From Deltaproteobacteria bacterium (GTDB taxonomy: Bacteria > Myxococcota_A > UBA9042 > CAIXZC01): 38,061 bases of DNA. The notes beneath the pieces are model-generated. The model was not told the origin of the DNA, searched no databases, and saw nothing but the letters and a program-made list of their open reading frames with translations. Below, piece after piece: positions 5,530 to 30,204 of this stretch. The translations under genes and the position numbers were made by a program. Location: positions 1 through 38,061 of the forward strand of contig VGRX01000010.1 of assembly GCA_016875215.1 (NCBI GenBank), written 5' to 3'. Each line of letters opens with the position of its first letter. The stretch's first letter is position 1.

Positions 5530-6636
5530 ATGGTGGAAGACCCTACCCTGATCCTGGTCGTCGAGGACAATCCGGCCAACCGGGAGCTGCTGGTCGAGTA
5601 CCTGGAAGCCGAGCGGTTCGACGTCGTGGAGGCTGGTGACGCCCGCACGGGGTTCGAGCTGTTCAAGGCGAGACGTCCGGACCTGGTCCTGCTCGACGTC
5701 ATGCTGCCGGATGACAGCGGGTTCAACCTGTGCCGGCGGATGAAGAGCGTCAGCCGGAGGTTCGTGCCGGTGGTTCTCGTGACTGCGCTCCACGAGACAG
5801 CAGACAAGGTGGAGGGGCTGGGGGCCGGAGCGGACGACTTCCTGAGCAAGCCGATCATCCGCGAGGAGCTGGTGGCGCGGACCCGGTCGCACCTGCGGGT
5901 CAAACGCCTTTGCGACAAGGTCGAGATGTACCAGGCCGAGCTGGCCCGGTTCAACCAGCGGCTCCAGGAGGAAGTGGATCTTCGGACGCAGCAGCTCCGG
6001 GCTGCGCTGGCGGACCTGAAGCGGGCCATGGACCTGACCGAGAAGACGCAACAGGAGATCGTGGAGCGGCTGGGAGTTGCCTCGGAATACCGGGACCAGG
6101 AAACGGGCAACCACGTGCGCCGGATGAGCCTGCTGGTCCACGAGCTGGCGCTGGCCTGCGGGTTGTCGCCCGAGAGCGCAGAGGTCTACCGGCAGGCAGC
6201 GGCGCTTCACGACATCGGCAAGATGGGCGTGCGGGATCACGTGCTCCTGAAGCCGGAGCAGCTCGACGAGGGGGAGGTGGAGTTGATCCGGGAGCACACG
6301 ATCATCGGGGCCAGCATCCTGGCGAACCCCCGAACGGAGCTTCTGCACGTGGCCTGCCAGATGGCTCGAAGCCACCACGAGCGGTGGGACGGGCTCGGCT
6401 ACCCCGACGGGCTCAAAGGGGAGGAGATCCCGCTTCCGGCCCGCATCTGCACCGTGGCCGACGTGTTCGACGCCCTGACCACCCGGCGGATCTATCGCCG
6501 GGATCCGCTGACCCCGGAAGAGGCCAGGAACGACATCCTCCAGGGGTCGGGCACGCGCTTCGACCCCGGGGTGGTGCAGGCGTTCGACCAGTGCTTCGCC
6601 AAGATGGCCGAGGCCTGGGAGGCGGCAGAGAAATGA
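5530..6636 (+). CDS. Response regulator with HD-GYP output domain (putative c-di-GMP phosphodiesterase)
   Basis: REC domain (VVEDN..LVLLDVMLPDDSG..LSKPI) plus HD-GYP motifs (LHDIGKMGV, SHHERWDGLGYPDGLKGEEIP, ADVFDALTT). Confidence 0.95.
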   Translation: MVEDPTLILVVEDNPANRELLVEYLEAERFDVVEAGDARTGFELFKARRPDLVLLDVMLPDDSGFNLCRRMKSVSRRFVPVVLVTALHETADKVEGLGAGADDFLSKPIIREELVARTRSHLRVKRLCDKVEMYQAELARFNQRLQEEVDLRTQQLRAALADLKRAMDLTEKTQQEIVERLGVASEYRDQETGNHVRRMSLLVHELALACGLSPESAEVYRQAAALHDIGKMGVRDHVLLKPEQLDEGEVELIREHTIIGASILANPRTELLHVACQMARSHHERWDGLGYPDGLKGEEIPLPARICTVADVFDALTTRRIYRRDPLTPEEARNDILQGSGTRFDPGVVQAFDQCFAKMAEAWEAAEK

Positions 6637-8156
6637 GAACGGCCCTCGCCACAGCCGGTCTGCTCCTGCTGGCTCTGATGCTGCTTGCCGGCGGCTGCCG
6701 GGAGAAGCGGGTCATCGTCTGCAAGTCCAACGAGGGCTTCGACCCGAACCTGGGGATATGCTACCAGTGTCCTGAGGGGATGAAGGCCAACCCGAAGACG
6801 GCCAAGTGCGTGCCGGTTTCCAAGACGGACGTGGTCCAACAGGACGGGACCGAGCCCGCGGACTGGATTTCGGCAGGCGATGCGGATGCCGGGGACTTCG
6901 GGTCCGGCGAACCGGAGGACTCGGACGTTCCCGGAGACGAGGACGTGGCGCCGGCGGTCGACGTCGTCCCGGCCGGCTTCATCGGCGCTCCGTGCAACAC
7001 GGACAACGACTGCGATCCCGGATTCACGTGCTTCGACTGGCCCAAGGGGTATTGCGTGAAGACCGACTGTGCGTCGGGCACGGACTGTCCGGCAGGGACA
7101 TCATGCCTTCCGCTGATGGAGAACGGGCAGGCCTGCTTCGACAACTGCGCGGTGGACAGCGAGTGCAGGCCGGGATACGGCTGCAAGGCGATTCCGACGA
7201 TCCAGGGGAATCCGATGCCGGTGTGCCATCCCGTGGGTGACGGGAACAAAGGGGCCGGCCAGGCCTGCGAGGACCACGCCGAGTGTTCGGGGTCGCTGGC
7301 CTGCGTGCCGCTCGGTCCCGCCAAGATGTGTCTTTCGTCCGGGTGCAGCACGTTCGCCCCGTGCGAGTCGGGGCAGACGTGCGTGAGCTGGGGCATGATG
7401 ACCTTGTGCCTGAAGGGGTGCTCGGGTACGCCGGAATGCCAGGACCTCGGAAACGCGATCTTCGTCTGCCAGGGAGTCAAGGACATCGTGGACGAGAAAG
7501 CGGATGTCTGCCTGCCGGCCAAGCAGGGGCTGGCGGTGGGGGACCTCTGCTACTTCCCGTCGGAGTGCCAGACCGGCTTCTGCCAGCTCGTGGTGTCGGG
7601 CAAGTGCTCCGGCATTTCCGGCAACGAATGTGCGACCGACAAGGACTGCACGCAGGCGGTGTGCATCCCCGACCCGTCGGTGCAGAAAGGGGTCTGCTCG
7701 CAGCCGTGCGGCCCCGGCTCGCTCTGCCCGAACGGCTCGCTGTGCGGGCAGGCAACCGGCTCCGCCGTGTGCCTCGACGTATGCGAGAACTATGCGATGG
7801 CGTGCGGGCCGGCGGGCTTCGGGATGACCTGTACTTACGGCAGCGTGGTCTACCCGAGTGCCAACTCGGGCAAGTACGCCTGCTGCAAGATTGCGGGCGG
7901 CGAGGCCGGCGCCCCGTGCCTGACCGAAGGGGATTGCGCCGGCGGCGTGTGCTACGGAGTCCAGGCGGGGCAGGGCTACTGTGCGACCAAGTGTGCGTCC
8001 GATGTCCAGTGCCCGTTCGGGTCACAGTGCCTGGCCGGCGCCCTGGTATCCGGGTCGAGCCTGTGTGCGAAGATCTGCTTCTCGGATCTGGACTGCCCGC
8101 AGGGATTTGCGTGCAAGAACACCATCTACACGGAGAAGGCCTGTCAGCTCAAGTAG
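6633..8156 (+). CDS. Cys-rich lipoprotein with repeated C-x(5-7)-C-x(4-6)-C modules
   Basis: Lipobox LLAGGC; many modules such as APCNTDNDCDPGFTCFDWPKGYC; ATGA overlap with the upstream HD-GYP stop. Confidence 0.85.
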   Translation: MRTALATAGLLLLALMLLAGGCREKRVIVCKSNEGFDPNLGICYQCPEGMKANPKTAKCVPVSKTDVVQQDGTEPADWISAGDADAGDFGSGEPEDSDVPGDEDVAPAVDVVPAGFIGAPCNTDNDCDPGFTCFDWPKGYCVKTDCASGTDCPAGTSCLPLMENGQACFDNCAVDSECRPGYGCKAIPTIQGNPMPVCHPVGDGNKGAGQACEDHAECSGSLACVPLGPAKMCLSSGCSTFAPCESGQTCVSWGMMTLCLKGCSGTPECQDLGNAIFVCQGVKDIVDEKADVCLPAKQGLAVGDLCYFPSECQTGFCQLVVSGKCSGISGNECATDKDCTQAVCIPDPSVQKGVCSQPCGPGSLCPNGSLCGQATGSAVCLDVCENYAMACGPAGFGMTCTYGSVVYPSANSGKYACCKIAGGEAGAPCLTEGDCAGGVCYGVQAGQGYCATKCASDVQCPFGSQCLAGALVSGSSLCAKICFSDLDCPQGFACKNTIYTEKACQLK

Positions 8157-10717: not shown

Positions 10718-13501
10718 GTGGACTACAAGGATACGCTGGGCTTGCCGAGGACGGCCTTCCCGATGAAGGCCAACCTCTCACAGAGGGAGCCGGCCCGAGT
10801 CGAGAAGTGGGACCGGTCGGGTACCTACCGCCGCATGGTGGAGCGGAACGGCGACCAGCCCCGCTACATCCTTCACGACGGCCCTCCGTACGCCAACGGT
10901 CACATCCACTCCGGCACGGTGCTGAACAAGATCCTCAAGGACTTCGTGGTCAAGTACAAGAACATGAGCGGGTTCCTCTGCGAGTACCAGCCGGGATGGG
11001 ATTGCCACGGGCTGCCCATCGAGAACAACGTCGAGCGGGAGGTCGGCAAGGCGAAGGATGCCTTCTCCGTGGCCGAATTCCGGAAGATGTGCCGCGAGTA
11101 CGCACTGCGGTTCGTCGACATCCAGCGGGACGAGTTCAAGCGGCTCGGCGCACTGGGCGAATGGGAGAACCCCTACCTGACGCTGCATCATTCCTACGAG
11201 GCCACGATCGCCCGCGAGTTCGGCAAGGTGGTGGGGCGGAATGCGCTGTACAAGAAGAAGAGGCCGGTGCTCTGGTGCGCTCACCATGCGACCGCGCTGG
11301 CCGAGGCCGAGGTGGAGTACGAGGAGCTCTCTTCTCCCTCCATTTGGGTCCGCTTCCGGATGAACGATGATGCCAGGGCACGGCTTCCGATGCTCCCGGC
11401 GGGCAAGCCGGCCTATGTCGTGATCTGGACGACCACGCCGTGGACGCTTCCGGCGAACCTGGCCATCACGCTGCACCCGAAGCTGGAGTACTCCGTGCTC
11501 GACTTCTCTGACGCGGCGTACTTCGTGGCCACCGAGCTCGAGCGGCAGTTTGTGGCGGACTGTGAGCTGTCCCAGCCGACCCGCCTCGGAATCGTGTGCG
11601 GAGAGGCCATGGAGAAGGCGACCTGCCGCCACCCGTTCATCGAGCGGGACTCGCTCATCATCCTGGGGGACTTCGTCAGCATCGAGACCGGCACGGGTTG
11701 CGTCCACACCGCACCGGGACACGGGTCCGACGACTACGAAGCAGGGCTCCGGTACGGTCTCGACGCTTACGCACCGGTGGACGACCGGGGCTGCTTCACC
11801 GCAGAAGTCCCGTCCTACCAGGGGCGCTTCGTGTTCGAGACCGATGCCGACATCGTCGCGATGCTGCGGGAGAAGGGGGCGCTGCTCAAGGCCCGCTCGT
11901 GCACCCACTCCTACCCCACCTGCCAGCGGTGCAAGAAGCCCATCGTCTTTCGCGCAACCAGCCAGTGGTTCATCTCGATGGACGGGACCGGCCTGCGCGA
12001 GCGTGCCTTGCAGGTGATCCCCAAGGTGGAGTGGATTCCCGCCCGCGGGCAGCAGCGCATCTCGTCCATGGTCGAGCTGCGCCCGGACTGGTGCCTTTCC
12101 CGCCAGCGGCTCTGGGGGGTCCCGATCATCGCGTTCTACTGCACCCGCTGCCGTGCGCTCAAGCTGAGCCAGGACCTCGTGGACCACGTTGCCGACATCT
12201 TCGAGCAGGAAGGCGCTGACGCCTGGTACGTGCGCGAGGCCAGGGACCTGCTTCCGGCCGGAACGAAGTGCGATGCGTGCGGCCACGACGACTTCGAGCG
12301 GGAAACCGACATCGTGGACGTCTGGTTCGAGAGCGGCGTGAGCTATGCAGCGGTCATCGAGCGCAGGTACGGGGAACGGACGCTCTGCGACCTCTACCTC
12401 GAGGGAAGCGACCAGCATCGCGGGTGGTTCCAGTCCACGCTGCTCGAATCGGTGCTGACCCGCAACCGCCCGCCGTTCGTGACCGTGCTGACGCACGGGT
12501 TCGTGGTGGACGGCGAAGGGCGCAAGATCTCCAAGACGCTGGGCAACTACGTGCCCCCCAAGGAGATCATCGACAAGCACGGGGCCGAGATCTATCGGCT
12601 CTGGGTGGCCGCGGAGAACTACCAGGAGGACGTGCGCATCTCGGACACGATCCTCAAGACGCTGGTGGACGCGTACATGAAGGTGCGCAACACGTTCCGG
12701 TTCCTGCTGGGAAGCCTGGACGGATTCGACCCGTCGACGGACGTCGTGGCCCCTCGTGACATGATGCCCATCGACCGGTACATCCTTCATCGGACTGCGA
12801 AGCTGACGGAGCGGGTCCGGAACGCGTACGATGTCTTCCGCTTCCATGACATCTACCAGCAGGTGGTGCAGTTCTGCGCGGTGGACCTGTCGGCGTTCTA
12901 CCTGGATGCGCTCAAGGACCGCCTGTACGTGCTGCCTCGCTTCTCCGGAGAGCGCCGGAGCGCACGGGCAGCGCTCCACGCCATCCTCTCGGCCCTGGTC
13001 CGGATGCTGGCCCCGATCCTCTCGTTCACCTGCGAGGAGGTCTGGGAGCACATGCCGCACGGCATCGATGCGGGAGAGAGCGTGTTCCTCGCCCGTTTCC
13101 CGAGCGACTTTCCGGGCCGGTATGCGGACGATGCGCTTGCTGCCCGGTTCGACCAGCTCGTCGAGCTCAGGGACCTGGTGAAGAAGAAGCTGGAGGAAAA
13201 GCGGGTCCAGAAGATCATCGGGCATGGCCTCGATGCCCGGGTCGTCGTGAGCATCGGCAAGGGCCACCCGTGGTACGGGGCGGTGGATGCGCACAGGGCC
13301 GCGCTGCGTGAGCTGCTCATCGTCAGCCAGGTCGAAGTAGTGGACGGGGACGGCGATGGGCTCGAGATTGCGGCCGACCACGCTACCGGACAGAAGTGCA
13401 CCCGCTGCTGGAACTGGTCCGAGACGACCGGGCAGAACGAGGAGTACACCGGGACGTGCTCCCGCTGCGCCCGGATTCTTTCGCAGTTGAAGCCGTCATG
13501 A
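10718..13501 (+). CDS. ileS: Isoleucyl-tRNA synthetase
   Basis: HIGH-type motif GPPYANGHIHSG, KMSKS-type motif GRKISKTLGNYV, C-terminal zinc motif CTRCWNW..CSRC; GTG start after GGAGGAAG. Confidence 0.98.
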   Translation: MDYKDTLGLPRTAFPMKANLSQREPARVEKWDRSGTYRRMVERNGDQPRYILHDGPPYANGHIHSGTVLNKILKDFVVKYKNMSGFLCEYQPGWDCHGLPIENNVEREVGKAKDAFSVAEFRKMCREYALRFVDIQRDEFKRLGALGEWENPYLTLHHSYEATIAREFGKVVGRNALYKKKRPVLWCAHHATALAEAEVEYEELSSPSIWVRFRMNDDARARLPMLPAGKPAYVVIWTTTPWTLPANLAITLHPKLEYSVLDFSDAAYFVATELERQFVADCELSQPTRLGIVCGEAMEKATCRHPFIERDSLIILGDFVSIETGTGCVHTAPGHGSDDYEAGLRYGLDAYAPVDDRGCFTAEVPSYQGRFVFETDADIVAMLREKGALLKARSCTHSYPTCQRCKKPIVFRATSQWFISMDGTGLRERALQVIPKVEWIPARGQQRISSMVELRPDWCLSRQRLWGVPIIAFYCTRCRALKLSQDLVDHVADIFEQEGADAWYVREARDLLPAGTKCDACGHDDFERETDIVDVWFESGVSYAAVIERRYGERTLCDLYLEGSDQHRGWFQSTLLESVLTRNRPPFVTVLTHGFVVDGEGRKISKTLGNYVPPKEIIDKHGAEIYRLWVAAENYQEDVRISDTILKTLVDAYMKVRNTFRFLLGSLDGFDPSTDVVAPRDMMPIDRYILHRTAKLTERVRNAYDVFRFHDIYQQVVQFCAVDLSAFYLDALKDRLYVLPRFSGERRSARAALHAILSALVRMLAPILSFTCEEVWEHMPHGIDAGESVFLARFPSDFPGRYADDALAARFDQLVELRDLVKKKLEEKRVQKIIGHGLDARVVVSIGKGHPWYGAVDAHRAALRELLIVSQVEVVDGDGDGLEIAADHATGQKCTRCWNWSETTGQNEEYTGTCSRCARILSQLKPS

Positions 13502-14592
13502 AGGGACTGCGGGCAAGATTCCCGAGGCTGGCGCTCTTTCTTGCCGTGGCCATGGCCGTTGCCGCGCTCGACCTGGCCACGAAGTGGTGGGCCGCATCCG
13601 TCCTGGCCACGTTCGAGCACCCGCAGCCGATCCTGGTGGGGGATTCCATGCAGGGGAAGACGATGCGGCAGCTCCTGGATGCGAGCCGCTTCCCCATGGG
13701 AGACGTCAAGGATGTGTTTCCGCTCTTTCCGGCTCTGGCGGAGGTCAAGGGCTCCGATTCGGTGCCGGTCGACCGATACCTGAGGGACTTCGGCTACTAC
13801 GTGTGGCTGGCGCCGGGGCGAAGCTCGCCGCCGATCTTCATCGACAACCCGGCCCGCCGGGCGTTCGAGCGCCAGTTCGAGGCGGGGTTGCTGGTCCGGA
13901 CCCTGGACCGCGTCCTGACCCTGGTGAAGCTCCCGAAGGTGCATGACATCCTGGTGAAGATCGGGATCTCGGACGAGTGGAGAAAGTGGCGCGACATCGT
14001 GCTGCAATGGAAGGACACGAAGCTCACCTATGCCCAGCTTCTCGAGGGGCAGCTCCCGTTCCTGGACGACGGGGAGGCGGAGGAGATGCTGAGGCAGGGG
14101 CTGGTCCACCCCATCCCCATGGAGTCGGGGAATCTGAGGCCCAACGTGCCGCGCTTCTCGGACTCGACGCCGGTCTCTGCCGGGGAAGTCTACCTGCTCG
14201 GCTACCGCGAGATCCCGCTCATCCCGTCGCTTCTGCGCTTCATCTATGCGGAGAACCCCGGGGCTGCGTGGGGGGTGCTGAGCGATGCGTCGGTCACTGT
14301 CCGGGTGATCTTTCTCCAGGTCATGACCGGCCTTGCCATGCTGCTCATCGTGTTCGTGGCGGTGCGGCTCGGGCACGAGAAGGACTACCTGACCGCGGTG
14401 GCCCTGGCCGGAATCATGGGTGGCGCCATCGGCAACTTCGTCGAGCGGATCAGCCGGTTTGCGGTGGTGGACTTCATCGACATGTACATCGGGACGTCGC
14501 ACTGGCCCACGTACAACGTGGCTGACATCGGCATCACGCTCGGGGTCGGCATCATCGCCCTCCAGGTGATCCGCAAGAAGAACCCGTTCTAG
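13498..14592 (+). CDS. lspA: Signal peptidase II (LspA) with a large extracytoplasmic insertion
   Basis: YAENPGAAWGVLSD, GGAIGNFVER, VVDFIDMYIG and TYNVADIGITLGV are LspA motifs; TM1 ALDLATKWWA. 364 aa rather than about 165. Confidence 0.9.
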   Translation: MKGLRARFPRLALFLAVAMAVAALDLATKWWAASVLATFEHPQPILVGDSMQGKTMRQLLDASRFPMGDVKDVFPLFPALAEVKGSDSVPVDRYLRDFGYYVWLAPGRSSPPIFIDNPARRAFERQFEAGLLVRTLDRVLTLVKLPKVHDILVKIGISDEWRKWRDIVLQWKDTKLTYAQLLEGQLPFLDDGEAEEMLRQGLVHPIPMESGNLRPNVPRFSDSTPVSAGEVYLLGYREIPLIPSLLRFIYAENPGAAWGVLSDASVTVRVIFLQVMTGLAMLLIVFVAVRLGHEKDYLTAVALAGIMGGAIGNFVERISRFAVVDFIDMYIGTSHWPTYNVADIGITLGVGIIALQVIRKKNPF

Positions 14593-14607: not shown

Positions 14608-15675
14608 ATGCACCCGACCTTCCACCTCGGACCGCTCGAGTTTCCGGCGTACTTCACGTTCCTGACCATCGGCTACCTTGCTGCCGTCATGCTGGCCTGG
14701 CGCGAGACGTTCAGGACGAAGGGAGTCGATCCGAACAAGATGCTCGATCTCGCCATCGTGCTGCTGATCACGGGCCTTCTCGGCTCTCGCATCCTGCACG
14801 TCATCGCGGACGGGCACTTCGACGACTACGTGAACCTCTGTCTCGATCCGTTCAAGGTCGAGGGGCGGACGCTTCCCAAAGGGGTGCCGTGCATCACGGA
14901 TGCGGAGTGCCTCAAGGGGGAGGTCGGCGAGCTGTGCAACGTGGCCACGGGGCAATGCCATCCCGGCCGCGACTGTCTGCGCACGTTGAAGATCTGGTAC
15001 GGCGGTCTGGCGTTCTACGGGGGGCTGCTGCTGTGCATCCCGGTTGGAATCGGGTACATCCTGAGGCACAAGGACAAGCTCGACCTGTGGAAGATGGCGG
15101 ATCTGGCCGGCTTCGGCATCCCGTTGGGGCTGATTCTCGGCCGCGTCGGGTGCTGGTTCGCGGGCTGCTGCTTCGGTGAGGTGGACCACTCGGGCTGCGG
15201 CGTGGTGTTTCCGAAGTTCTCTCCGGCGTGGGACCGGCACATCGAGCGGGGGCTCATCGAGAAGACCGCTGCGGCGCCGCTGCCGGTGATTCCGTCGCAG
15301 CTCATCCAGATCGGGCTCAACGCGGCCATCTTCCTGTACTGCTACTGGCTGTTCAAGAAGCGCAAGCGGTTCGATGGGCAGGTGTTCTGGATGTTCATGC
15401 TGCTGTATGCCGTCGCCCGGTTCGGTATCGAGTTCTACCGGGATGACCATCGCGGCATCTGGCTTGGGGACACGCTGTCCACGTCGCAGCTCCTCGGCAT
15501 TCCGGTGGTGATCGGTGCGGCGGTGATGCTGCGGATCCTGTCCCGCAGGCAGGCGCGCAATCCGGAGCCGCTGCTCGATGCCCCGGGGGATCCGCTGCTG
15601 GAGCAGGGCCGCTCCACGCAGCCGTCGCCGCCCGGTTCGGGGGACGACGGCGGCGATTCCGGAGGAGCCGCGTGA
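14608..15675 (+). CDS. lgt: Prolipoprotein diacylglyceryl transferase, paralog 1, with Cys-rich loop
   Basis: KIWYGGLAFYGG, GRVGCWFAGCCFGE, PSQLIQIGLNA and RFGIEFYRDD correspond to Lgt motifs; multiple TM segments. Confidence 0.9.
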   Translation: MHPTFHLGPLEFPAYFTFLTIGYLAAVMLAWRETFRTKGVDPNKMLDLAIVLLITGLLGSRILHVIADGHFDDYVNLCLDPFKVEGRTLPKGVPCITDAECLKGEVGELCNVATGQCHPGRDCLRTLKIWYGGLAFYGGLLLCIPVGIGYILRHKDKLDLWKMADLAGFGIPLGLILGRVGCWFAGCCFGEVDHSGCGVVFPKFSPAWDRHIERGLIEKTAAAPLPVIPSQLIQIGLNAAIFLYCYWLFKKRKRFDGQVFWMFMLLYAVARFGIEFYRDDHRGIWLGDTLSTSQLLGIPVVIGAAVMLRILSRRQARNPEPLLDAPGDPLLEQGRSTQPSPPGSGDDGGDSGGAA

Positions 15676-16583
15676 TCACGGGGTACGGGTTCTGGCTCGC
15701 CCTGGGAATGACAGCGGGGGCCATCGTCGCCATCCGGCTCTCCCCTCGTGCGGGCGTCACGCGGGAGGCCATGGCCGAGACCACCTTCTGGGCCTTGCTT
15801 GCGGGCTTCATCGGGGCCAGGCTGCTGCACGTGGCGGTGGAATGGCGTTTCTACCTCGATCTCTGCGTTGCCCCCGACCTGGCGCTCCCCAACGGAGTGT
15901 CGTGCCTCCTCGGTTGTGTGCCGGGGCAGGAGTGCGACGGGCACATCTGCCGCAACGTGGGCGACTGCCTGAACGCGTTCAAGTTCTGGCAGGGCGGGCT
16001 GACCTTCCTGGGCGGCGTGGTTGCCGGGATCCCGGCAGCGCTCGTCGCGGCCCGGAGGCAGAAGGCATCCCCGGAGGCGGCGTTCACCCTGCTGATGCTG
16101 GCACTGCCCCTGGGGCACATGTTCGGTCGGATCGGCTGCTGGTTCGAGGGGTGCTGCCACGGCCGGCACAGCCAGCTCTGGCTTGCTGTGGATGGCAAGG
16201 TTCCGACCCAGCTCATCGAGGCCGGCTTCAACGGGCTCGTCTTCCTCGTCCTGCTGGCCCGCTTCCTGGAACTGACCCGGAAGGGCATGCCGGCCCCTTC
16301 CCGCCTGCTGGGTGTTCCTGCGCTCTACATGATGCTGTACGGCCCGTTTCGCTTCCTGATCGAGCCGCTGCGGGGGGATCCGCAGCGGGGGTTTCTGTTC
16401 GAGCTGCCGTGGCCGTGGCTTGCCCGCACCGTCGGGTTCTCCACGCTGGAGCCGGCCTTCCTCTCGACCTCGCAGATCCTGGGAATCGTGCTCTTGATCC
16501 TGGGCTTCTTCCTGTGGCGCCTGGGTCTTACTTCTCCCCGAACACCTCGAGCTGCTCCAGGTGAAACTCGGGACGCTCGGTGA
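15672..16583 (+). CDS. Prolipoprotein diacylglyceryl transferase family protein, paralog 2, with Cys-rich loop
   Basis: KFWQGGLTFLGG, GRIGCWFEGCCHGR, PTQLIEAGFNG and RFLIEPLRGD; GTGA overlap with paralog 1. Confidence 0.85.
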   Translation: MITGYGFWLALGMTAGAIVAIRLSPRAGVTREAMAETTFWALLAGFIGARLLHVAVEWRFYLDLCVAPDLALPNGVSCLLGCVPGQECDGHICRNVGDCLNAFKFWQGGLTFLGGVVAGIPAALVAARRQKASPEAAFTLLMLALPLGHMFGRIGCWFEGCCHGRHSQLWLAVDGKVPTQLIEAGFNGLVFLVLLARFLELTRKGMPAPSRLLGVPALYMMLYGPFRFLIEPLRGDPQRGFLFELPWPWLARTVGFSTLEPAFLSTSQILGIVLLILGFFLWRLGLTSPRTPRAAPGETRDAR

Positions 16584-18030
16584 GCACGACGGCCTTCTTC
16601 TGTCGCTTCTCCATGCGCTCCAGGACCGTACCGCAGGTTTCCATCAGGAGCTGGCAGATCCGGGGGTTGGCATGGGCATGGAGGGTCTTTGCACGAGATG
16701 ATGAAAGCTCCTTGCGGAGCTTGTCCATCAGGGTGTGCACGATCATGTCGGGGCTCTTGAGATACCCCTTGCCTTCGCAGTAGAAGCAGGGTTCGGTCAG
16801 CCGCGTCATGACGCTGTCGGCCACCCGCTTCCGCGTCATTTCGACGAGACCGAGCTCGCTCATGGGGAGCACCCTCGAACGTGCGTAGTCCTTGCGCAGC
16901 TCCTCCACGAGCGTCGAGTGGACCTGGTGGCGGTTCTCCTTCTCCTTCATGTCGATGAAGTCGATGACGATGATCCCGCCGATGTTGCGGAGGCGGAGCT
17001 GGTAGGCAATCTCCACCGCGGCTTCCAGGTTGGTCTTGAGGATCGTCTCCTCCGGGTCGTTCTTCCCGGTGAACTTGCCCGAGTTGACGTCGACGGCGGT
17101 GAAGGCCTCGGCGCGGTCGATGACGATGTAGCCGCCCGACTTGAGCCAGACCTTGCGCTCCACTGCACGGGAGATCTCGTATTCGATCCCGTAGTGCTCG
17201 AACAGCGATTCCCGGCCCAGGAAGAGCTCGACCCGCGGTGCGAACGAAGGAAGGAAGCGGGCCACGAAGTTCTTGACCTGTCGATGACCGTCCTCGGAAT
17301 CGACGATGAGCTGGTCGAAGCGACGGCAGATGAGGTCGCGGGCCGTGCGCAGGAGCAGGTGCATGTCCTCGTGGAGGAGTGCCGGGGAATCGACGGCATC
17401 CGCTCCCTTGCGGACCTGCTGCCAGATCTGGTGGAGGAACTCGACCTCGGAGCGAAGCTCGTCCGCACTGCGCCCCTCGGCCACGGTTCTGAGGATGAGC
17501 CCGATTCCTGGCGGCCGGACCGCTTCACCGATGTCTCTCAGGCGCTGCCGCTCATCGGGGTCCTCGATGCGGCGGGACACTCCGACGTGGTCCACCGTCG
17601 GCATGAGGACCCCCAGCACGCCGGGCAGCGTGAACTGGCAGGTGAGGCGGGCCCCCTTGGAGCCGATGGGTTCCTTGGCCACCTGCACCACGATGTCCTG
17701 CCCCTCGCGGACCAGCGTCTCGATGCGAACGTCCGAGCGCTCCGTCCTCTCGTGGTTCTGCTCCTCCTCGTCCGCGGGGGCCTCGTCGGGATTGCGGCGG
17801 CCGACGACATCGGTGGCATAGAGGAATCCGGTGCGCTCGAGACCGGCGTCCACGAATGCGGCATTCATCCCGGGCAGGACCCGCATCACGCGGCCCTTGT
17901 AGATGTTGCCGACGATCCGTCGCTCCCGCACGGTCTCGATGTGGATCTCCGACAGGCCCCCCGCCTCGACGACTGCGACGCGGGTCAGCTCATCGGTATG
18001 ATTGACCAGGATGCGATTCTCCACCCGCAC
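16528..18030 (-). CDS. rng: Ribonuclease G/E family protein
   Basis: MRVENRILVNHTDELTRVAVVEAG..GNIYKGRVMRVLPGMNAAFVDAGLERTGFL (S1-like), DVNSGKF, IGGIIVIDFIDM, CYCEGKG-type motif PCFYCEGKGYL. Confidence 0.95.
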   Translation of the reverse strand: MRVENRILVNHTDELTRVAVVEAGGLSEIHIETVRERRIVGNIYKGRVMRVLPGMNAAFVDAGLERTGFLYATDVVGRRNPDEAPADEEEQNHERTERSDVRIETLVREGQDIVVQVAKEPIGSKGARLTCQFTLPGVLGVLMPTVDHVGVSRRIEDPDERQRLRDIGEAVRPPGIGLILRTVAEGRSADELRSEVEFLHQIWQQVRKGADAVDSPALLHEDMHLLLRTARDLICRRFDQLIVDSEDGHRQVKNFVARFLPSFAPRVELFLGRESLFEHYGIEYEISRAVERKVWLKSGGYIVIDRAEAFTAVDVNSGKFTGKNDPEETILKTNLEAAVEIAYQLRLRNIGGIIVIDFIDMKEKENRHQVHSTLVEELRKDYARSRVLPMSELGLVEMTRKRVADSVMTRLTEPCFYCEGKGYLKSPDMIVHTLMDKLRKELSSSRAKTLHAHANPRICQLLMETCGTVLERMEKRQKKAVVLTERPEFHLEQLEVFGEK

Positions 18031-28608: not shown

Positions 28609-30204
28609 TCAACTGCCGGGAAGCAGGTTGTCGAGGCAGAGCTGCAAGCCGGTGCAGCAGACGCACAGGAAGCAATTGGGGCAGTTGCAGTTCGGCTTGG
28701 GCACGCACCCGTTGGACCCGCAGGTCCCTGCCAGCTTGCAGATGCCCAGATCGAACACATCGTAGGTGCACGGTGTTCCGTTGAGCACGTCGTGCACGCA
28801 CCCCTGTTCCTTGGTGCAGCTGTCCTTGGTGCACTCCTCCTTGTCGTCGCAGTTCTTGGGGGCTCCGGAGACGCACATGCCGCTGTTGCACATGTCGGGC
28901 TCGGTGCACGGATTGCCGTCGTCGCACGGGAGTGCGGAGGCCAGCTTGTGCTGGCAGGTGCCGTTCTCGCAGACGTCGATGGTGCAGGGGTTGCCGTCGT
29001 CGTCGCACTTGTTGGAGTTGTTGACGAACTTGCACCCCTTCTCGCTGACCGGGTCGCAGAGGTTGTCGGTGCACGGGTTGTTGTCCTCGCAGACCTTGGG
29101 CCCGCCCTCGCACTTGCCTTCGTAGCAGTGGTCGTTGTCGGTGCAGGAGTTGCCGTCGTCGCACAGCTTCGCATTGTTGGGGTGCGAGCAGCCCTCAATC
29201 GGGTCGCACAGGTCGTCCGTGCAGGGATTGCCGTCCTCGCAGAGGCCCTCGTCCTTGGTTCCGTCGCAGTTGTTGTCCTTCTTGTCGCACAGTTCGGTCG
29301 CGCCGGGATAGACGGTCCCGTCGGTGTCGTCGCAGTCGCCGCCGCCGCTGCCGCAGATCACCGGCTTTCCAGGTGTGGTCATGGTGGCGTCGCAGAATCC
29401 GTCGCCGTCGTCATTGCACCCTTCATCGACGGCCAGGTCGCAGTCGTTGTCCACGTCGTCGCACTTTTCGGCGGACGGGATCAGCGCGCTGCATTCGGAC
29501 AGGCCCGAGGCCTCGCACATGCGCTCACCGGTGCACTTGCCCGACTCGTTGGCGTTGAAGCAATCGGTGGACTTCTGCGCCTGGACTGCCGGGAAGGAGC
29601 AGGTGCACTCGCCCGCGGTCGGCATGCACTGCTGGAACGTGCCTCCCGGGGTGGTCACGGTTTCGCACTGGTAGCCGGCGGGGCACGCGGCGGCATCCGT
29701 GGAGCAGTCGGCCCCGCAGAAGCTGCCGAGCCCGTTGGGAAACTCCAGACAGAGGTCGAGTGACGTGGTCGTCACCCCCTGCGTCTTGCAGTCGTCGTTG
29801 ATCCGGCAGGGGTCGCAGAGCGTCAGGAACTTCGGCATGCAGACATAGATGATGTCGGGCTTGGTGTCCGCCTCGACGCAGGCCCAGCCCTTGGGGCAGT
29901 CCTCGACGCACTGGGTGGTGCAGCGTCCTCCGTCCTTGGTGGTGACGCAGAAGCCGCTGTCGCACTCGGAGTTGTCGGTGCAGGGCCAGAGGAACTCGCC
30001 GGGTTGCGGAATGTACTCCACCTCCGCGGTGACGAAGTCGAGAAGCTCGAACCTGTCCTCGACGAGGGGAATGTCCGCTACGCCGTCGCTGCCCGACGAG
30101 TCGACGGCATCCTCGTACTTGACCGTCGTACCATTGGAGCAGCCGAGCGCTGCCAGACAAACCACGGCAAAGGTCACTGTCCATCGTTGCGGCCGGGAAA
30201 ACAT
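28609..30204 (-). CDS. Cys-rich lipoprotein with MopE-type motifs and CxDGNPCTxxxC repeats
   Basis: Lipobox LAALGCS; EKCDDVDNDCDLAVDEGC and DCDDTDGTVYPGATELCDKKDNNCDGTKDEG; repeated CDDGNPCT-type modules. Confidence 0.9.
   Translation of the reverse strand: MFSRPQRWTVTFAVVCLAALGCSNGTTVKYEDAVDSSGSDGVADIPLVEDRFELLDFVTAEVEYIPQPGEFLWPCTDNSECDSGFCVTTKDGGRCTTQCVEDCPKGWACVEADTKPDIIYVCMPKFLTLCDPCRINDDCKTQGVTTTSLDLCLEFPNGLGSFCGADCSTDAAACPAGYQCETVTTPGGTFQQCMPTAGECTCSFPAVQAQKSTDCFNANESGKCTGERMCEASGLSECSALIPSAEKCDDVDNDCDLAVDEGCNDDGDGFCDATMTTPGKPVICGSGGGDCDDTDGTVYPGATELCDKKDNNCDGTKDEGLCEDGNPCTDDLCDPIEGCSHPNNAKLCDDGNSCTDNDHCYEGKCEGGPKVCEDNNPCTDNLCDPVSEKGCKFVNNSNKCDDDGNPCTIDVCENGTCQHKLASALPCDDGNPCTEPDMCNSGMCVSGAPKNCDDKEECTKDSCTKEQGCVHDVLNGTPCTYDVFDLGICKLAGTCGSNGCVPKPNCNCPNCFLCVCCTGLQLCLDNLLPGS

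Follow-up and report, generated by a model that had tools for sequence, protein, structure and literature searches.

The first of two tandem Lgt paralogs encoded in the window (the whole 38,061-nt stretch of DNA analysed here) carries a six-cysteine insertion in the segment corresponding to arm-2 of the E. coli enzyme. Our favoured reading is that of a disulfide-held arm-2 domain of Myxococcota origin that acts as a rigid clamp or lip, a statement to which, taken as a whole, we give an even chance. The architecture, a periplasmic arm-2 domain inserted in Lgt, is very probable. The role of a rigid clamp or lip is a tentative assignment from sequence comparison, held at somewhat below even. Lgt, the enzyme of the first step in attaching bacterial lipoproteins to lipid, has been described as a highly conserved protein in which only the arms and head diverge, and our search of the literature found no description of an Lgt arm-2 built on disulfides.

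Both paralogs are encoded on the forward strand directly downstream of ileS and lspA. The lspA gene for signal peptidase II (13498..14592, forward strand), a single copy in our search of the genome, has its likely ATG at 13498, overlapping the ileS stop, within a reading frame open from 13396. The lgt1 gene (14608..15675) encodes 355 residues and lgt2 (15672..16583) encodes 303, with the GTG start of lgt2 overlapping the lgt1 stop codon. Lgt1 scores above the cut-offs of both PF01790 (E-value 1.7e-47, 162.2 bits against 24.9) and TIGR00544 (121.6 bits against 118.9); Lgt2 passes the cut-off of PF01790 (E-value 3e-39, 135 bits) and falls below that of TIGR00544 (86.6 bits against 118.9). The genome contains six Lgt-like genes, one of which, on contig C141, is canonical and insert-free. 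A further Lgt-like domain (L006, G000:C31:6370-7086) belongs to an open frame of 647 residues, which continues in a long C-terminal extension. At its 3' end (16528-16583), lgt2 overlaps tail-to-tail with a reverse-strand gene at 16528-18030, the product of which resembles ribonuclease E/G, as judged by reading its translation.

The translations of 14839..14976 in lgt1 and 15864..15968 in lgt2 (both on the forward strand) match exactly those quoted in the earlier note, with six cysteines in each segment. In Lgt1 these are C78, C95, C101, C110, C117 and C123, spaced C-x16-C-x5-C-x8-C-x6-C-x5-C within an insert of about 46 residues. The internal spacing is not common to the two paralogs, that of Lgt2 being C-x13-C-x3-C-x5-C-x4-C-x5-C. 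The GxDCLxxxKxW ending, which had been described as shared, is present in Lgt1 (GRDCLRTLKIW), but in the corresponding Lgt2 sequence (VGDCLNAFKFW) G stands one residue closer to DC. The Lgt1 segment is an insertion, as had been proposed, because the alignments of Lgt1 with PF01790 and with the structure of E. coli Lgt (5azb) break around it, resuming at the conserved motif before TM3. No Pfam family matches the insert. Its location between TM2 and TM3 agrees with the proposed periplasmic placement: in E. coli Lgt, the stretch between these helices forms arm-2, which lies on the periplasmic side and flanks the cleft by which substrates are proposed to enter (PMC4728403). A cytoplasmic placement is unsupported, with the insert lying between TM2 and TM3 and being net negative in most orthologs.

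All six insert cysteines are invariant in 18 of 18 Lgt1 orthologs from relatives (43-63% identical to the window Lgt1), as are P81, G115 and D122; the six-cysteine segment is therefore not a product of chance. The non-cysteine positions of the insert are variable (mean identity 0.39), except for Gly and Pro residues and both ends, and residues 124-139, beside the active-site motif, show the highest conservation in the protein (mean identity 0.77). A variable interior combined with conserved ends and cysteines is the pattern expected of a scaffold. Much longer versions of the Lgt1 insert, built around the same cysteine pattern, are found in L180 and L186 (genomes G193 and G254), in open frames of about 530 residues.

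The number of cysteines per insert and their joint absences bear out the earlier proposal of a disulfide-type module. Across 97 insert sequences the number is even in 96: six cysteines in 54, four in 30 and two in 12, with five in the one remaining sequence; an apparent count of seven includes a cysteine of TM2. In the four-cysteine form, carried by Sorangium cellulosum, Polyangium and Labilithrix among others, Cys2 and Cys4 are absent together, usually with Trp replacing Cys4 and the Cys3-x15-Cys5 distance intact. The two-cysteine inserts, mostly of Lgt2, keep only Cys1 and Cys6. Judging by these patterns, the insert is almost certainly held by disulfide bonds. Since Cys2 and Cys4 are missing jointly and Cys1 and Cys6 occur alone, the pairing is probably 1-6, 2-4 and 3-5, corresponding to 78-123, 95-110 and 101-117 in Lgt1; the absence of both Cys2 and Cys4 represents essentially one event in the tree, the related sequences not being independent. 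The genome also encodes a VKOR-type thiol oxidase, which is consistent with an oxidising envelope. The same order of disulfides, together with a CxSDxxC-like start, is found in the head domain of the P2X4 receptor (PMC8303255), but P2X4 is an animal ion channel with no significant sequence match to the insert, and the likeness is an analogy only. A P2X-like fold was rejected, with a phmmer E-value of only 0.55 and no Foldseek match.

An AlphaFold2 model of Lgt1, built with 18 sequences, has a mean pLDDT of 82, with values of 88-94 for residues 71-120. The insert is predicted to form a helix at residues 98-103 and strands at 109-111 and 116-118. The sole significant match of the model in the PDB is E. 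coli Lgt (5azb; Foldseek E-value 1.2e-8, TM-scores 0.57/0.69), and the predicted structure is an Lgt fold with seven TM helices. The insert modelled alone gives a weak prediction (pLDDT 67), with secondary structure much as in the full model.

Lgt1 shares with E. coli-type Lgt (5azb/5azc; PF01790; TIGR00544) the seven-TM body, the GGxxFxGG motif and the equivalents of R143, R239, E243 and R246. In Lgt1 the first three of these, R179, R271 and E275, and the last, R278, are invariant in the 18 orthologs. The differences from the E. coli type, beyond the arm-2 insert, lie at H103, replaced in Lgt1 by the nearly invariant Tyr137 and in Lgt2 by Leu, and at N146 and E151, both of which are Cys in Lgt1. 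Trp and Tyr are listed among the residues occurring at the H103 site (PMC13251419); the H103Y substitution fails in E. coli (PMC4728403). Lgt of Leptospira interrogans likewise has Cys at the N146 position and a second Cys nearby, for which a disulfide has been proposed, but this possible bond would fall within the signature motif, where TM4 ends, and not in arm-2 (PMC13251419). Lgt1 itself is probably an ordinary diacylglyceryl transferase. In Lgt2, the equivalents of Arg143, Arg239 and Glu243 (R153, R227 and E231) are invariant in four sequences; with the Arg and Glu residues kept and Leu at H103, Lgt2 may follow a different mechanism or be a weak catalyst.

The Lgt1 insert is conserved and old across a large part of Myxococcota. 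A profile of the insert found positives in 121 of 284 Myxococcota genomes, comprising 43 of the 52 in the class of the window and 78 of the 232 elsewhere in the phylum. The Lgts of eleven profile-negative Myxococcota genomes are without the six-cysteine insert, one of them having a two-cysteine version. The insert is absent from the same-type Lgts of Nitrospinota, Nitrospirota, Thermodesulfobacteriota and Acidobacteriota; in at least 27 of the 43 loci from other phyla, these insert-free Lgts adjoin lspA. In an Lgt tree computed without the columns of the insert, the Lgt1 copies group in a single clade (support 77/97), which at 77% bootstrap is not strongly supported. Because they form one clade, the tree suggests a single origin of the Lgt1 insert within Myxococcota, which would date its emergence to the ancestral form of Lgt1, the lspA-linked Lgt. 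The window Lgt2 groups with other tandem Lgt2 sequences (support 98/82), and by this tree the inserts of the two paralogs do not come from one shared recent duplication. The idea that Lgt2 arose by recent duplication of Lgt1 was rejected, the placement of the Lgt2 of the window's family together with Lgt1 being disfavoured (AU p 0.025). Among the Lgt2 sequences, only those of the window's family (G000, G001 and G002) were seen to have six cysteines, the others having two or none. The LPxGxxC start common to both inserts could be due to convergence, to gene conversion or to common ancestry. One tandem Lgt2 (L209, G009:C81) lacks a cysteine insert; a long insertion follows its GGxxFYGG motif instead.

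The earlier note had also likened the inserts to cysteine modules of neighbouring lipoproteins. The two genes used for this comparison, 6633..8156 on the forward strand and 28609..30204 on the reverse strand, do encode putative lipoproteins with lipobox-like starts (LLAGGC, LAALGC) and repeated cysteine modules. The former has repeated four-cysteine modules, such as GAPCNTDNDCDPGFTCFDWPKGYC; the product of the latter consists of 12% Cys and contains MopE metal-binding and Dicty_CTDC repeats. In the 284 genomes, the insert profile found two non-Lgt proteins with nearly the same spacing (L202 and L204), one a lipoprotein and the other a MYXO-CTERM protein. We built a cysteine-anchored profile of the modules from the window's own lipoproteins, excluding L202 and L204 to avoid circularity. 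None of 500 shuffles with fixed cysteines reached the score of the window Lgt1 insert against this profile (p<1/500). The likeness thus goes beyond cysteine spacing for the window Lgt1 but is slight across orthologs (mean z 1.4 for 21 inserts), and profile-profile comparison with hhalign gives probabilities of 4-21%. The four-cysteine modules of lipoproteins and MYXO-CTERM proteins resemble the insert in a GxxCxxxxxCx(5-8)Cx(6-11)C-like pattern; unlike the insert, they are repeated and soluble and have no counterparts of Cys1 and Cys6, and the profile similarity is weak. A Foldseek search of the isolated insert against the PDB finds no match, so that the fold which inserts and modules were suggested to share, or a common descent, is no more than possible.

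In the favoured reading, a small periplasmic domain with three disulfides would have been grafted into arm-2 of Lgt. The Cys1-Cys6 bond would close the base of the domain and fasten the C-terminal end of TM2 to the N-terminal end of TM3, immediately ahead of the GGxxFYGG active-site motif, while Cys2-Cys4 and Cys3-Cys5 would interlock the short helix and the hairpin. Such a clamp would fix arm-2 and narrow or shape the front cleft, the entry for the phospholipid and the preprolipoprotein. The main rival is a substrate selector, in which the module recognises a class of acceptors, either lipoproteins rich in Cys or MYXO-CTERM proteins, and guides it to the active site. The reported influence of arm-2 on protein-substrate specificity (PMC13251419), the resemblance to neighbouring lipoprotein modules and the presence of several Lgts per genome, among which labour could be divided, are in keeping with such a role, and an Lgt-like enzyme acting on the MYXO-CTERM cysteine is being sought (PMC11980579). 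However, MYXO-CTERM proteins are processed in E. coli (PMC11980579), whose Lgt is insert-free, and insert residues other than cysteine show little conservation. Nor do substrate numbers follow the insert in the small sample of same-class genomes compared, six without an insert-bearing Lgt and 29 with one. The median number of MYXO-CTERM proteins is 10 without the insert (7, 16, 1, 15, 7 and 13 in the six genomes) against 5 with it (p 0.15), and that of Cys-module proteins is 4.5 (5, 1, 6, 6, 4 and 4) against 6 (p 0.23). The recognition of Cys-rich substrates put forward in the earlier note is therefore unsupported, since insert-free genomes of the class have as many such proteins, and we regard a selector as fairly unlikely. 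A MYXO-CTERM transferase was rejected as the main reading, the counts being no higher where the insert is present. It is very unlikely that Lgt1 (or Lgt2) has specialised in a class of substrates that canonical Lgt of the same cell handles poorly, recognising it by the disulfide module; its substrates would in that case be, for example, MYXO-CTERM cysteines or fast-folding Cys-rich lipoproteins.

The insert might instead dock an envelope protein, such as LspA, Sec or a lipoprotein chaperone, for hand-over of the product. The placement of lspA directly upstream, with an extracytoplasmic insertion of 130-200 residues of its own in the window's class, lends some weight to this. In the window LspA, 229 residues separate the first catalytic-Asp motif from NPGAAWG, against 33-57 in Polyangia. 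The insertion itself is Cys-free (approximately 13606..14193, forward strand) and about 190 residues long, and similar, nearly Cys-free insertions of 130-200 residues occur throughout the class. Yet in L086, L089, L093 and the four-cysteine Polyangia an insert-bearing Lgt is accompanied by an LspA of ordinary form, which means that the insertion in LspA cannot have been the original partner; it was rejected in this role, as the distributions of the two insertions do not coincide. Docking to a partner is unlikely in our estimate; the present evidence fits a clamp and a docking surface alike. The insert could also be neutral, a loop rich in disulfides that is tolerated where the structure permits it and serves only its own folding, with abundant secreted modules perhaps as its source. 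Its interior residues and length do vary, up to the very long versions of L180 and L186, but the six cysteines are invariant over many families, the differences in cysteine number between groups are even, and the base is strongly conserved, which together indicate selection for the fold and make neutrality distinctly unlikely. We favour the structural clamp because neither the substrate counts nor the distribution of the LspA insertion gives support to the alternatives. A lineage with a disulfide-built arm-2, the cells of which also keep insert-free Lgts, would constitute a natural experiment on the function of arm-2.
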